Source: a bacterium (GTDB taxonomy: Bacteria; UBP15; UBA6099; DSWB01). Taken from it: a stretch of DNA of 5,600 nt. Location: contig JAGUYV010000354.1 of the NCBI GenBank assembly GCA_020061125.1, forward strand, positions 1-5,600, given 5' to 3'. Both the position numbers and the translations under genes were made by a program. The stretch's first letter is position 1. Each line of letters opens with the position of its first letter. The notes below the pieces were generated by a model, which saw nothing but the letters and a program-made list of their open reading frames with translations, did not search any database and had not been told where the DNA came from. Positions 1-4,911 of this stretch are shown piece after piece.

Positions 1-984
1 GCCCGCGGGCGCGAGCAATTCGCCGGGGCGCGCGTCCTCTTTGTCCTCCCGGTGACCCAGCCCGGGGGCGGGGCCAACGTGGTCATCGACGAGGCCGTGG
101 CCATGGAGGCCATGGGGGCCGAGGTGACCATCCATAACCTGCCCGCCAACCGCGCCGCCTTTGAGCGCGCCTATCCGGACATGCCCCTGCCGACACGCTA
201 CGTCGCGCCGGAGGCCCTACCTGAGATGGCCGCCGATTACGACGCCGTGGTGGCCACGTTCAACACCTCGGTGGAGTGGCTGGCCCCCCTGGGCGACCTC
301 CCTAACCCTCCGGTGCGCGGCTATTACGTTCAGGGATACGAGCCCCTCATCTACCCGGAGCACACCCCCGACTATGAGCGCGCCCTCCGGTCGTACGCCC
401 TGTTCGATGACCTGGTACGCATCACCAAGACGGAATGGACGAGGCGCCAGGTGCTGGCCCATACCGGTGTGGACAGCCGGGTCGTCGGTCCAAGCGTGAA
501 CATCGACCTCTTTCGCCCGAGGCCGCGGGATGACGGGTCCACGGCGGATGCCCCGCTGCGCATCGCCGCCATGGTGCGCGCCCTGCGCGATCAGGTCGTG
601 CTGTGCGAGGCCTGGGGTAACGCCCGCCCCGAGGAGGGCGGCGAGCATTTCCTGGCCTACTGCCTCGAAGACATCACGCGCGATCATTACATTCACGGCA
701 ATCTGATCGCGCTCAATGTGCTGGCCGTGCTCCGGCTGCAGCGGGAGCGCGCCGTGTTTTCCGTGGAGGAAATGAAAAATTTTTTCGACGCCGCGGGCCT
801 CGCGTACCGGCCCGCGCAGCAGGGCATCGCGCGCCGGGACTACGAACAGGCGCTGCTCACGGCCCCGGATTTCGTGCGCCGCGAGAATCTTTTCAAGGGC
901 CTGTGGTGGCGCGAGCGCGTTTTCGACCATACCGGCCCGCTGTCCGCGCAAGGCGTTGCGGACTGGCTCTATGGCCTCGAATAG
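1..984 (+). CDS. GT4 glycosyltransferase N-half fused in frame to iron-dehydrogenase C-domain (5'-partial, chimeric)
   Basis: The frame is open from base 1 (ARGREQFAGARVLFVLPV...) and stops at TAG 982-984, so the real start lies upstream; the GTG at 52 falls inside the first beta strand of a Rossmann fold and is not the start. Residues below are numbered from that GTG. Residues 1-176 look like a GT4 (WsaF-like) glycosyltransferase donor/acceptor domain: PGGGANVV loop, RGYYVQGYEPLIYP, ITKTEWTRRQV, GPSVNIDLFRP, then LRIAAMVR, which in that family leads into the GT-B second domain. Instead, from about residue 177 the sequence resembles the metal-binding domain of iron-dependent dehydrogenases (AraM/glycerol-1-phosphate dehydrogenase): ARPEEGGEH (H199) and HYIHG (H212, H215). 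The GT catalytic E-x7-E domain and the dehydrogenase NAD-binding GGGS and metal-ligand Asp are both absent, so neither activity is expected. It could be a genomic deletion fusion or an assembly join. Family calls come from motif memory. Confidence 0.7.
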   Translation, partial: ARGREQFAGARVLFVLPVTQPGGGANVVIDEAVAMEAMGAEVTIHNLPANRAAFERAYPDMPLPTRYVAPEALPEMAADYDAVVATFNTSVEWLAPLGDLPNPPVRGYYVQGYEPLIYPEHTPDYERALRSYALFDDLVRITKTEWTRRQVLAHTGVDSRVVGPSVNIDLFRPRPRDDGSTADAPLRIAAMVRALRDQVVLCEAWGNARPEEGGEHFLAYCLEDITRDHYIHGNLIALNVLAVLRLQRERAVFSVEEMKNFFDAAGLAYRPAQQGIARRDYEQALLTAPDFVRRENLFKGLWWRERVFDHTGPLSAQGVADWLYGLE

Positions 985-1054: not shown

Positions 1055-1912
1055 ATGGCCGCAGCACAGGAACCGGAACGCATTCTGATCTTCGAGCCGC
1101 ACCCGGACGATGTGGCGTTCCAACTCGGCGGCAGCGTGGCGAAATGGATCGCCCAGGGCCGCGAGATCTTCGTCTGCACGGTGACGACCGGCAACAGCTC
1201 GACATTCGATCCCGGCGTGGGGCGCGAGCAGATCGCGCAAACCATGGCCGCGGAGCACGCGCGCGCCCTGCGCCGCCTGGGCGTGGACCGGGAGCATGCG
1301 ATCCAGTGGGAATACGACGACCTGGACCTGGATCCCGGCGCAACCCACACGCAACTGCGGCCGCGCATGATCGAGCTTATCAGGAAAATCAGGCCCGTGA
1401 CCGTGGTCACCCTGGACCCCACGCACAACATGCTGGAAGAGAACCCCGACCACCGCGCCACGGCCCTGTGCGCGTTCGAGTCCGCGGCCCTGGCCGCGCA
1501 TCACACGCTCTACCCCGAACAATTCCGCGACGGCGCGCAGCCCCATTTCGTGTCCCGCGTGCTGTTCTACATGACCGAATTCCCGACCGTGTTTGTGGAC
1601 ATCGCCGGGGATCCCATCGCCGCCAAGACCGAGGCCGCGCTCGAATACGCCTCGCAGCTCGAGTTGCTGATCACGGACGCGCGCCGCCGCCTCGACGGCC
1701 TGGGCGCGCGCCTGCCCCTGTTCGACATGCCCCCGCCGGACATCTGGCGCTTGATGTGCCGCCAGATCGCCGAAGACACGGCCGCGGAATGCATCTCATG
1801 GAACCCCGAGCGCGAGATCCATCTCGCCGAGGCGTTCCGCCTGCAATATCTGGGCGTGATAGACAAGATCAAGGACTTTCTGGACATCCCGGAGACCCTG
1901 CGCTTTGACTGA
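1055..1912 (+). CDS. PIG-L / LmbE family deacetylase
   Basis: A 285-residue protein of the PIG-L (LmbE-like) zinc-dependent N-deacetylase superfamily, which removes acetyl groups from GlcNAc-type sugars and glycoconjugates (relatives include MshB and BshB). Residues 10-19 read ILIFEPHPDD: a beta strand followed by the diagnostic PHPDD motif (H16, D18, D19), with D18 expected as general base and H16/D19 as zinc ligands. EHARALRRLGV (68-77) is the family's conserved helix, WEYDDLDLD (85-93) the following loop, and NPDHRATA (130-137) carries the third zinc ligand H133. No signal peptide is seen, so it should be cytoplasmic. The start is set by the RBS at 1043-1050. The stop TGA (1910-1912) overlaps the start of the downstream sugar symporter by 8 nt, so the two are probably translated together, suggesting the enzyme acts on something imported by the transporter. 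The exact substrate cannot be read from the sequence. Confidence 0.9.
   Translation: MAAAQEPERILIFEPHPDDVAFQLGGSVAKWIAQGREIFVCTVTTGNSSTFDPGVGREQIAQTMAAEHARALRRLGVDREHAIQWEYDDLDLDPGATHTQLRPRMIELIRKIRPVTVVTLDPTHNMLEENPDHRATALCAFESAALAAHHTLYPEQFRDGAQPHFVSRVLFYMTEFPTVFVDIAGDPIAAKTEAALEYASQLELLITDARRRLDGLGARLPLFDMPPPDIWRLMCRQIAEDTAAECISWNPEREIHLAEAFRLQYLGVIDKIKDFLDIPETLRFD
1891..1895 (+). promoter_or_regulatory. RBS supporting the TTG start of the symporter
   Basis: GGAGA lies within the end of the deacetylase gene, 9 nt before TTG 1905-1907. No ATG or GTG lies in frame near this point, and the first in-frame ATG (residue 21) would cut into the first membrane helix, so this site decides in favour of the TTG start. 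Confidence 0.5.
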
Positions 1913-3239
1913 CGCCTCCCGGAAACCGGCCCGCGAATTCTCCACCGCCGAAGCTCTGGCCTACATGATCGGCGCCATCGGCATCCAGCTTCTTTCCACC
2001 ATGATGCTCGAATGGGCGGCCATCTACTACCACCCGCCCGAAGGCGCGGACAAAATCCGCTACACCACCATGGGCCTGGCGTCGCTGATCATGATCATCG
2101 GCATCTTGAGCGACGCCATATCGGATCCCATGGTGGGGTACTGGAGCGACCGGAGCCGCAGCCGGCTGGGACGGCGCAGGCCATTCATCATCTACGGCTC
2201 GCCGCTCGCGTGCGTGTCGTTCGTGCTGTTCTGGTTTCCGCCCCTGGCGCACGAGCACTGGCTGAATTTCGCCTGGGGCGTGTTCTGGGCCATGGCGTTC
2301 TTCTGGGGCCTCACCCTGGTGATTATCCCGTACATCGCGCTCCTGCCCGAAATGGCGCGCTCCACGGGCGGGCGCGTGAAACTGGGCGTTTACCAGGCCG
2401 TGGGCATGATCCTCGGCCTGGTGCTTGGTTTCGCCAGCGGCATCCTCATCACCAAGATCGGCATCAAGGCCACGGGCGCGCTGTTCGGCGCCGTGTCCTT
2501 CGCCACATTCCAGCTCGCGGGCTGGACCGTGAAGGAACGATTCGTGCAGAGCGCGGACGATGCGCCCGGTTCCCTGCGCCAGATGGGCGCGCAGCTCGCC
2601 GGAACGCTCAAGAACCGGCCGTTCCTCATCTTTCTGGCGGCCGAGACCATCTTCACCCTCGGCTTCACGGTCATCCAGATCGTGCTCCCGGATTACAACA
2701 TGGTGATTCTGGGCAAGGAAGAGGATTTCGTGACCCTGCTGTTTTTGCCCTTCCTGCTGGTGTGCTTCCCGCTGATCTTCGTGATCGAGCCGGTTGTGAA
2801 AAAATGGAACACGCGGATCACATACGCCTCGGGGCTGTTCGGGTTCGCGATTCTGTTTCCGCTTCTGGGCCTGATCGGGCTGGTTCCGGACCCCGGCATG
2901 CGCATTGTGCTGCTGCTGGTCATGGTGGGGCTGGCGGGCGCGCCGCAGGCGGTGAAATATGTGATGCCCGGCCCGTTGATCGGGGAAATAGCGGACTACG
3001 ACGAGAAGCACATGACGGGCCGCCGCCGCGAGGCCATCTACTCGGGCGCAATCGGCTTCGCCATGAAAACCGCCATGATGTTGAGCTATGGCGTGCGCTA
3101 TGCGGTGTATGCGCCGTTCGGGGAGTTCAGCGTGCGCAACCACACGCCCGTGCTGCTGATCGGCCCGGTCACGGCCGTGATCTGCATGATCGGGTTCTTC
3201 GTGTTCCTCAAATACCCGGATATGTCCAAACAGGAATAA
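1905..3239 (+). CDS. GPH-family (MFS) sugar:cation symporter
   Basis: A 444-residue inner-membrane transporter of the glycoside-pentoside-hexuronide:cation symporter family (MelB/XylP/UidB type, usually about 440-500 residues). About twelve hydrophobic segments are visible, roughly 20-42, 56-72, 97-113, 122-145, 165-183, 190-208, 241-263, 276-296, 304-325, 332-352, 380-400 and 415-435. The signature loop between helices 2 and 3 reads SDAISDPMVGYWSDRSRSR and continues to GRRRP (89-93). D70 and D74 align with the MelB cation-site pair D55/D59, so ion coupling is probably retained. IPYIALLPEM (141-150) and the late motif IGEIADYDEKHMTGRRRE (359-376), followed by the K388 helix, are also typical. 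Translation starts at TTG, overlapping the deacetylase stop by 8 nt, which argues for coupled expression. The substrate is probably a sugar or glycoside; the deacetylase neighbour hints at an N-acetylated one, which is inference. Confidence 0.9.
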   Translation: MTDASRKPAREFSTAEALAYMIGAIGIQLLSTMMLEWAAIYYHPPEGADKIRYTTMGLASLIMIIGILSDAISDPMVGYWSDRSRSRLGRRRPFIIYGSPLACVSFVLFWFPPLAHEHWLNFAWGVFWAMAFFWGLTLVIIPYIALLPEMARSTGGRVKLGVYQAVGMILGLVLGFASGILITKIGIKATGALFGAVSFATFQLAGWTVKERFVQSADDAPGSLRQMGAQLAGTLKNRPFLIFLAAETIFTLGFTVIQIVLPDYNMVILGKEEDFVTLLFLPFLLVCFPLIFVIEPVVKKWNTRITYASGLFGFAILFPLLGLIGLVPDPGMRIVLLLVMVGLAGAPQAVKYVMPGPLIGEIADYDEKHMTGRRREAIYSGAIGFAMKTAMMLSYGVRYAVYAPFGEFSVRNHTPVLLIGPVTAVICMIGFFVFLKYPDMSKQE

Positions 3240-3287: not shown

Positions 3288-3432
3288 GTCTGTTGAAAAA
3301 CCCCTTCGCCTGTCGAGGATGTGACTCATACATTCGCAAGGCTGCGAAAAAACCGGGGACCGGGTCGCTTTCCGCAAGGAAAGCGTTGCCTGTCCCCTGC
3401 ATTTTTTCGCCTCTCGCGCTTTTTCAACAGAC
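3288..3432. repeat. Nested palindromic REP/MITE-like element
   Basis: A 145-bp element bounded by perfect 13-bp inverted repeats, GTCTGTTGAAAAA (3288-3300) and TTTTTCAACAGAC (3420-3432). Inside lies a second, layered palindrome: GCGAAAAAA (3344-3352) pairs with TTTTTTCGC (3402-3410), GGGGAC (3355-3360) with GTCCCC (3392-3397), and CGCTTTCC (3366-3373) with GGAAAGCG (3378-3385) across a GCAA tetraloop. It has no coding potential. The GGGGAC...TGCCTGTCCCC core resembles REP-type palindromes associated with RAYT transposases (from memory, not checked). No clear target duplication flanks it. Confidence 0.7.
3355..3407 (+). terminator. Probable intrinsic terminator of the deacetylase-symporter operon
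   Basis: The inner hairpin of the repeat (stems 3355-3360/3392-3397 and 3366-3373/3378-3385, GNRA-type GCAA loop) is followed after TGCA by six T's (3402-3407), about 115 nt beyond the symporter stop. A GC-rich stem and U-run is the form of a rho-independent terminator, although the stem has an internal loop and the T-run is offset by 4 nt. The A-run at 3347-3352 gives it partial symmetry, so it could also act on the other strand. Confidence 0.5.
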
Positions 3433-3485
3433 CCAGCGTCCCGATTTTCATGTGTGAACAGCGCGCAAAAAGCAAAAGCGAGGCA

Positions 3486-3520
3486 TAGTTAAGTATGGTG
3501 TCCCATAAGCGTTAACTTAA
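3486..3520 (+). repeat. Left inverted repeat of the IS
   Basis: This 35-bp sequence begins TAGTTAAGTATGGTGTCCC and ends GTTAACTTAA. It is the exact reverse complement of 4877-4911; the match breaks on the inner side at 3521 (C against G) and on the outer side at 3485. It contains, on the minus strand, the TAA at 3517-3519 that would have ended the ancestral transposase frame. The outermost 7 bases may be host target sequence rather than IS. Confidence 0.95.
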
Positions 3521-3720
3521 CGAAATTTCGAGAATTCTTCAATAGTAGCATTCAACGCCTGATGTTGCCGCATTCTCGTGCGTGGGGACTCCCGGAGGCC
3601 TTGGCGAATCTTGTCCCAGGTGGCAAGAGAAAAGGACAATCCCATTTACAGGTCAACCGCCGACTGTATTTCATGCAGAATAAACAGCGTTTCTCTCCAC
3701 CGGCTGTCCACACATTGCCG
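3517..3720 (-). pseudogene. Out-of-frame C-terminal remnant of the IS4 transposase
   Basis: In the minus-strand frame shifted by one nucleotide from the transposase, the DNA encodes SRWRETLFILHEIQSAVDL (3705-3649), a TAA stop (3648-3646), then WDKIRQGLRESPRTRMRQ and HQALNATIEEFSKFR, ending at TAA 3519-3517 inside the left inverted repeat. WRE-x-LFIL-x-EI and W-x-x-I-x-x-x-L-x-E-x-PR-x-R-x-x-Q are the C-terminal hallmarks I associate with IS4 transposases. The span 4837-3517 is 1321 nt, one more than a multiple of three, consistent with a single-base insertion plus a Q-to-stop-type change. The repaired protein would be about 439 residues. Confidence 0.75.
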
Positions 3721-4837
3721 TCGCATGGCCCTGTTCCCGGATTTTGACATAGCCCCAGGGGGAAATAAAATCGGCTGTATCAATGATGGTTTCAGCAAGA
3801 AGTCCGATGAGAAGTTTGCCGAAAAGCCATGCCTTGGCGCTTTCCTCGTCGTGCTTGGGAAGATGGCCGAAGTTAAAGAGCGATTTCAGCCGCTTGAAGG
3901 CAAGCTCCACCTGCCATCGAGCCCTGTACAATTCCATGACCTCCGTGGCGGAAAGAATCGATGCATCCACCGTGGTGAAAAGACACGAGTACATCGCGGC
4001 TTGCTCGGCTTTGCGGCCGGGAGCGCGGCCGTGCCGTGCGTTGCTCCTGCGGATGCGCTTCAATTCCATCTCGGTTGCCGCTTTGCTGCGTCTCAATGCG
4101 CAGATTCTTCCGGGAATCAGCCGCCCGTTTTCGCCCACAACATGCACCGGCCATTCTCCAATGCACCCCACGCGCAGTTTTTTCAGGCGCGTCAACAACT
4201 GAAACCGCTTCCCGTCGATGCTGCGCAGCGCGAAGCTGATTGATTTCATGCGCACAAGCGCCTCGCCGCCATTGTCCAGAACATGCGCCACGCCTTTCGC
4301 ATTCGCATAGGCGCGGTCTCCAACAATCAAATCCCCTTTCTCGACAGGAAGCAATTTGAACGTTTCCCCCACATGATTGTCAGTCACCTTGAAATAATCG
4401 CATAGAAGCGGCTTTAACTGCAGCGAGTAGTGTATGCGCCATTCACTCCCCGTGCTCCCCGGCTCGCTTACCGTGGTGCAGTCAACCAGCCTCACGCGCA
4501 ATCTCCCTCCGGCCCGCGCGGCGCCTGGGGGCACTTTCATGTTCTGCTTCAGCATTTCGTCCGCCATCCAGCGAAGCCATTCTCCCGACGCCCTTAATCG
4601 CTTGTATATGCCAACGCTTGATATGTCCGCCAATCCCGCCGCCTTCACCCGTACGGATGTCTCTTTCAGCGAGTACCCCTGCGCCAAGTGAATCATCAAT
4701 ATGCGCAAAAGTGTCTCGGCATCGCCAATCTGCCTGCATCTCGTGAGCGCTCCTCTCGCCTTCGCCTCGCTCTGCCATCCCTCGGGTAGAAAGCTGACAA
4801 GCGTTTCCCAGTCATCGGTTATGTGTTGTGTATTCAT
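3671..4837 (-). CDS. IS4-family DDE transposase, C-terminally truncated by frameshift
   Basis: A 388-residue open frame from ATG 4835-4837 to TGA 3671-3673. The catalytic DDE triad is intact (ATG numbering): D119 in RLVDCTTV, D174 in LIVGDRAYA, and E311 in YRARWQVELAFKRLK, which fits the IS4 signature Y-2-R-3-E-6-K. The sequence remains family-like to ISPWGY near residue 363, after which the last 20-odd residues to VYSA look like out-of-frame reading. The true C-terminal tail continues in the next frame (see 3517-3720). The frame is open further upstream to a TTG at 4871-4873, but that codon lies in the -35 box and is an unlikely start. No Shine-Dalgarno precedes the ATG, while the promoter places the transcription start almost at it, suggesting leaderless translation. 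Activity is doubtful without the C-terminal tail. Confidence 0.88.
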   Translation of the reverse strand: MNTQHITDDWETLVSFLPEGWQSEAKARGALTRCRQIGDAETLLRILMIHLAQGYSLKETSVRVKAAGLADISSVGIYKRLRASGEWLRWMADEMLKQNMKVPPGAARAGGRLRVRLVDCTTVSEPGSTGSEWRIHYSLQLKPLLCDYFKVTDNHVGETFKLLPVEKGDLIVGDRAYANAKGVAHVLDNGGEALVRMKSISFALRSIDGKRFQLLTRLKKLRVGCIGEWPVHVVGENGRLIPGRICALRRSKAATEMELKRIRRSNARHGRAPGRKAEQAAMYSCLFTTVDASILSATEVMELYRARWQVELAFKRLKSLFNFGHLPKHDEESAKAWLFGKLLIGLLAETIIDTADFISPWGYVKIREQGHATAMCGQPVERNAVYSA

Positions 4838-4844
4838 AAAACAA

Positions 4845-4873
4845 ATCATATCATGCTTTGTGTCTGTTGTCAA
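4845..4873 (-). promoter_or_regulatory. Transposase promoter, predicted leaderless
   Basis: On the minus strand, TTGACA (4873-4868, perfect -35) and TATGAT (4850-4845, five of six of the -10 consensus) are separated by exactly 17 nt. Initiation about 7 nt beyond the -10 falls at 4837-4839, coinciding with the ATG at 4837. Confidence 0.75.
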
Positions 4874-4876
4874 TCC

Positions 4877-4911
4877 TTAAGTTAACGCTTATGGGACACC
4901 ATACTTAACTA
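4877..4911 (-). repeat. Right inverted repeat of the IS
   Basis: Exact reverse complement of 3486-3520, reading TTAAGTTAACGCTTATGGG and ending at A4911. It lies immediately upstream of the transposase promoter; the -35 hexamer begins 4 bp inside it. Confidence 0.95.

Follow-up and report, generated by a model that had tools for sequence, protein, structure and literature searches.

A reading frame at the left edge of contig C291 begins as a glycosyltransferase and ends as a dehydrogenase, which raises the question of whether two genes were fused in a bacterial genome or were joined on the way from reads to contig. The window analysed was the entire contig of 5,600 bp, which belongs to a metagenome-assembled genome (MAG) of 513 contigs with an estimated completeness of 79%. 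No stop interrupts frame +1 between nt 1 and the stop codon at nt 982–984, and because the window is the whole contig, the 5′ end of this ORF (1–984) is cut by the contig edge. A preliminary description of this DNA had reported a stop-free frame that starts in the N-domain of a GT4 glycosyltransferase and finishes in the C-domain of an iron-type dehydrogenase. Both the continuous frame and the identity given to each half were borne out by our analysis. The ORF has a two-part origin with a switch that can be located, an architecture absent from the genomes searched, and essential parts lost from both halves, and we regard it as a chimera in which fragments of two unrelated genes were joined, most likely by an error of metagenome assembly, a reading that we hold with reasonable though not full confidence.

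Two incomplete halves and their junction

The left part of the ORF (nt 1–561, plus strand) is a fragment of a GT4-type glycosyltransferase comprising its N-terminal, acceptor domain. Residues 5–194 share 45% identity with a GT2-GT4 ORF of 724 aa (locus L031 of genome G341), the match lying in its GT4 part. More distant matches are an Enterobacter plasmid glycosyltransferase, at 28% identity over residues 5–193 only, and glycosyltransferases on Methylosinus plasmids. Known GT2-GT4 glycosyltransferases combine Glycos_transf_2 and Glycos_transf_1, and residues 1–193 align to their GT4 N-domain; the fragment is probably derived from the second half of such a two-domain protein. Judged by the 45% identity to the L031 protein, the acceptor-binding Rossmann domain is present, and the Glyco_transf_4 profile matched the ORF below its cut-off. 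Unlike the GT2-GT4 proteins, the ORF, itself truncated at the contig edge, has no GT4 C-domain with the nucleotide-sugar site: neither PF00534 nor PF13692 matched the ORF, while this domain was found in the L031 homologue. The homology of this half stops at the peptide IAAMVR.

The right part (nt 583–984, plus strand) comes from the C-terminal end of an iron-type, glycerol-1-phosphate-dehydrogenase-like protein and matches NF002022 in part. Residues 188–327 are 55 to 62% identical to full-length dehydrogenases of 340 to 343 aa from Bathyarchaeota, Sigynarchaeota, and Lokiarchaeota MAGs (loci L131–L134) and about 50% identical to proteins from Deltaproteobacteria and Bdellovibrio MAGs (L135–L136). 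They align to the C-terminal part of the glycerol-1-phosphate dehydrogenase/AraM/GldA group of type III alcohol dehydrogenases (NF002022, PF13685), with which the ORF shares EEGGEH and HYIHG and the two metal-ligand histidines. His216 and His232 of the ORF align with the invariant H231 and H247 of the homologues, such that two of the three expected metal ligands are kept. The C-terminal helical domain carrying these histidines (EEGxEH and HG) is present, with its start missing. Unlike iron-type dehydrogenases, the ORF lacks the N-terminal NAD(P) domain with its GGG motif (G75–G77, invariant in the homologues) and the metal-ligand Asp (NRAGxxD); the corresponding invariant residue of the homologues, D151, which we take to be a metal ligand, lies upstream of the junction. 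The preliminary description had already noted that both partners are incomplete, lacking the GT-B C-domain and the GGGS region; to these losses must be added the metal-ligand Asp, as well as the helices with which the dehydrogenase C-domain begins.

Even the intact homologues, which carry an Fe-ADH_2 domain, matched NF002022 at 117 to 123 bits, far under its curated cut-off of 413, and the term glycerol-1-phosphate-dehydrogenase-like therefore describes sequence likeness. A model of an intact homologue (mean pLDDT of 93) had the Methanocaldococcus glycerol-1-phosphate dehydrogenase (4rfl) as its closest fold, and its predicted fold also resembles that of 5fb3.

Aligning the ORF with the L031 glycosyltransferase and the L131 dehydrogenase placed the junction at nt 562–582 (plus strand). 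Glycosyltransferase-like matches end at residue 193 or 194, and dehydrogenase-like matches start at residue 188 or at residues 195–197. Codons 188–193 (IAAMVR, nt 562–579) are compatible with both parents, and D197 is the first residue that clearly fits the dehydrogenase only. Across the junction, the window reads IAAMVRALRDQVVLCEAWG, the glycosyltransferase homologues read IAAMVRPSSPRRG (L031) or ISAMIRPQTPRRG, and the closest dehydrogenase homologue (L131) reads IRAMVKGFVDEVNLCEGWG; after IAAMVR, close glycosyltransferase homologues continue with PSSPRRG or PQTPRRG, and the ORF has ALRDQVVLCEAWGNARPEEG at this place. The switch had previously been assigned to nt 577–585; it does exist, but its position can be narrowed only to nt 562–582, an interval that is slightly wider and lies further left. 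In the predicted structure of the intact dehydrogenase, the junction falls within a 21-residue helix (residues 200–220) that follows several helices of the C-terminal domain. Since the join lies inside this modelled helix, it would not coincide with a domain boundary, and the dehydrogenase fragment would not amount to a whole domain.

Searches for the architecture and for the missing halves

Full-length homologues with the same two-part architecture in many genomes would have marked a real family, as the preliminary description pointed out; we found none in two sets of 386 and 384 genomes, nor in 86 dehydrogenase loci. When the whole ORF was searched against the 386 genomes, 12 others were matched, each over one half only, whereas a search with the glycosyltransferase half in the 384 genomes around G341 returned G341 as the sole match. 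A first scan of genome contigs with the whole ORF yielded no relative; nor did a phage collection, or viral contigs scanned with the glycosyltransferase half. Reading upstream of the match in the 86 dehydrogenase loci, we found both the GGG and the Asp motifs in 67 under a strict pattern, the remainder being mostly full-length genes with dehydrogenase-like sequence before the match plus a few truncated frames. None of the frames read at these 86 loci carried the glycosyltransferase.

The missing halves were also sought on other contigs of the MAG itself; of 60 contigs sampled from it, eight (all <3 kb) read as N. Neither the dehydrogenase N-half nor the glycosyltransferase C-half was found on the other visible contigs, where only distant, independent GT4 genes were seen (contigs C375, C168, C306, C124, and C11). 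The match on C168 begins near the start of that contig, and we considered it as a candidate for the missing piece; it has its own upstream sequence in frame and is only 25% identical, and it was rejected. Within the visible MAG, neither parent gene turned up as a separate intact copy.

Codon choice and the neighbourhood to the right of the join

Along the contig, the best-supported change point in codon usage fell at codons 207–229, close to the junction (G = 84, whereas the highest of 200 permutations reached 73). For Ala, the ratio of GCC to GCG was 21:3 left of the junction and 8:8 right of it (Fisher p 0.014); for Gly, the ratio of GGC to other codons went from 3:9 to 9:1 (Fisher p 0.004). 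Ala and Gly were selected with the data in view; each contrast was matched by 1 of 182 within-gene splits in the MAG (0.5%), both together by none. The overall codon-usage G was not exceptional: 19% of the comparisons within MAG genes and 37% of those between them gave a larger value. By codon choice, the left side of the contig is thus partly foreign-looking.

The right side of the contig, in contrast, is resident in this MAG, as indicated by the recurrence of a PIG-L gene near the dehydrogenase in other loci and by a repeat abundant in the MAG. The dehydrogenase part is followed on the plus strand by a gene for a PIG-L family deacetylase (nt 1055–1912; PF02585, E = 2e-20) and one for an MFS transporter of the GPH symporter type (nt 1905–3239; PF13347, E = 3e-39; TIGR00792). 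Of 80 loci fetched around dehydrogenase homologues, 20 also held a PIG-L homologue, two of them (Sigynarchaeota/Lokiarchaeota) with a PIG-L protein 37% identical to that of the window; none was found on the 60 further contigs sampled from the MAG. The repeat, a short interspersed element of ~150 bp (nt 3290–3435) with inverted ends (TCTGTTGAAAAA and TTTTTCAACAGA), gave 47 matches in the MAG, the best others being 87 to 94% identical.

Several further features of this neighbourhood were recorded. The repeat is MITE- or REP-like, and several shorter pieces of it are clustered on contigs C70, C31, and C403. To its right lies an IS4-family insertion element (nt 3486–4911) whose 38-bp terminal inverted repeats are 97% complementary and whose 400-aa transposase is encoded on the minus strand; the G+C content of the element, 54%, is much below that of the genes to its left. 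A dehydrogenase-like gene and a PIG-L gene stand close together also in MAGs of Lokiarchaeota, Sigynarchaeota, Abyssobacteria, and Poribacteria (loci L133, L134, L138–L140, L142–L144, L147, L154, and L169). Near the closest dehydrogenase homologues (L131, L133, and L134, on Asgard/Bathyarchaeota contigs), genes resembling AMP-dependent synthetases were seen by eye.

Origin of the join

The preliminary description had left the choice between gene fusion and artefact undecided, and the evidence now leans to the latter. The two halves match two different families of full-length proteins, the matches break off at the same point, and the contig, 5.6 kb long and from a fragmented MAG, has its edge within the glycosyltransferase piece. 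The lack of the fusion among the homologues found, the break inside a modelled helix, the essential parts missing on either side, the resident right side, and the shift in codon choice near the junction point the same way. We infer that the join was an assembly event and not a DNA event in the cell; short reads were presumably used, and shared k-mers are a recognised and well-described cause of chimeric contigs in short-read metagenome assembly (PMC7299287). The assembler would have run from a GT2-GT4 gene into the dehydrogenase gene that belongs to a resident dehydrogenase/PIG-L/MFS neighbourhood, switching at a place where the two genes have (A)AMVR codons in a common frame, with the glycosyltransferase piece probably coming from another organism or another locus. 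The ORF resembles known chimeric metagenome contigs in that homology changes abruptly over a short segment that suits either parent, not far from where the contig ends, and in that the MAG is fragmented, a likeness drawn here from the sequence. Several considerations count against an assembly chimera. The overall difference in codon usage is unexceptional among MAG genes, and the Ala and Gly contrasts were selected post hoc. The stretch common to both parents may span perhaps only ~13 to 20 nt, which is short for the k-mers of modern assemblers, and a simple mis-join within the genome predicts that the missing halves lie elsewhere in the MAG, yet they were not found on its visible contigs.

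The main rival is a real in-frame rearrangement, a deletion or an illegitimate recombination that used the short homology coding for AMVR and left a pseudogene that makes neither enzyme; we consider it possible but rather unlikely. It would accord with a frame kept without a stop and a switch on a stretch that both parents could share, with the IS4-family element and the MAG-abundant repeat as signs of a plastic genome, and with the failure to find intact parents in the visible MAG. However, a k-mer join at a shared peptide would preserve the frame too, the contig, one of many in a fragmented MAG, ends not far from the join, and the choice of Ala and Gly codons differs across the join. The particular form of rearrangement proposed earlier, deletion between tandem genes, is unsupported, since the glycosyltransferase family was not found in any fetched dehydrogenase locus (up to 6 kb on each side). 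The hexamer TGCGCG is indeed present at nt 575–580 and 584–589, but it cannot be taken as the signature of a microhomology deletion as had been proposed, because such a deletion leaves one copy and the product retains both; TGCGCG also occurs at nt 314, with five occurrences on the plus strand of the window.

A functional fusion of a GT4 acceptor domain with a metal-binding dehydrogenase C-domain is very improbable: apart from the open frame, the evidence speaks against it, as the first part has no nucleotide-sugar domain, the second has neither the NAD domain, the metal Asp, nor the first C-domain helices, and no homologous fusion was found. AlphaFold gave the ORF a mean pLDDT of 57, compared with 93 for the intact dehydrogenase, which is a weak argument owing to the poor alignment for the chimera, in which the glycosyltransferase half appears to be laid against the dehydrogenase N-half. 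The product is unlikely to work, and a real, expressed fusion of the acceptor domain with the partial helical domain, adopted in this lineage for a new kind of binding without catalysis, is extremely improbable.

If an assembly chimera is indeed what the ORF represents, it cautions that a stop-free frame across a junction is not proof of gene fusion in a fragmented metagenome assembly, and depositing it as a protein would give rise to a false two-domain architecture annotation. The neighbourhood of dehydrogenase and PIG-L genes, common to Asgard archaea and some bacteria, is a more interesting lead than the ORF itself.
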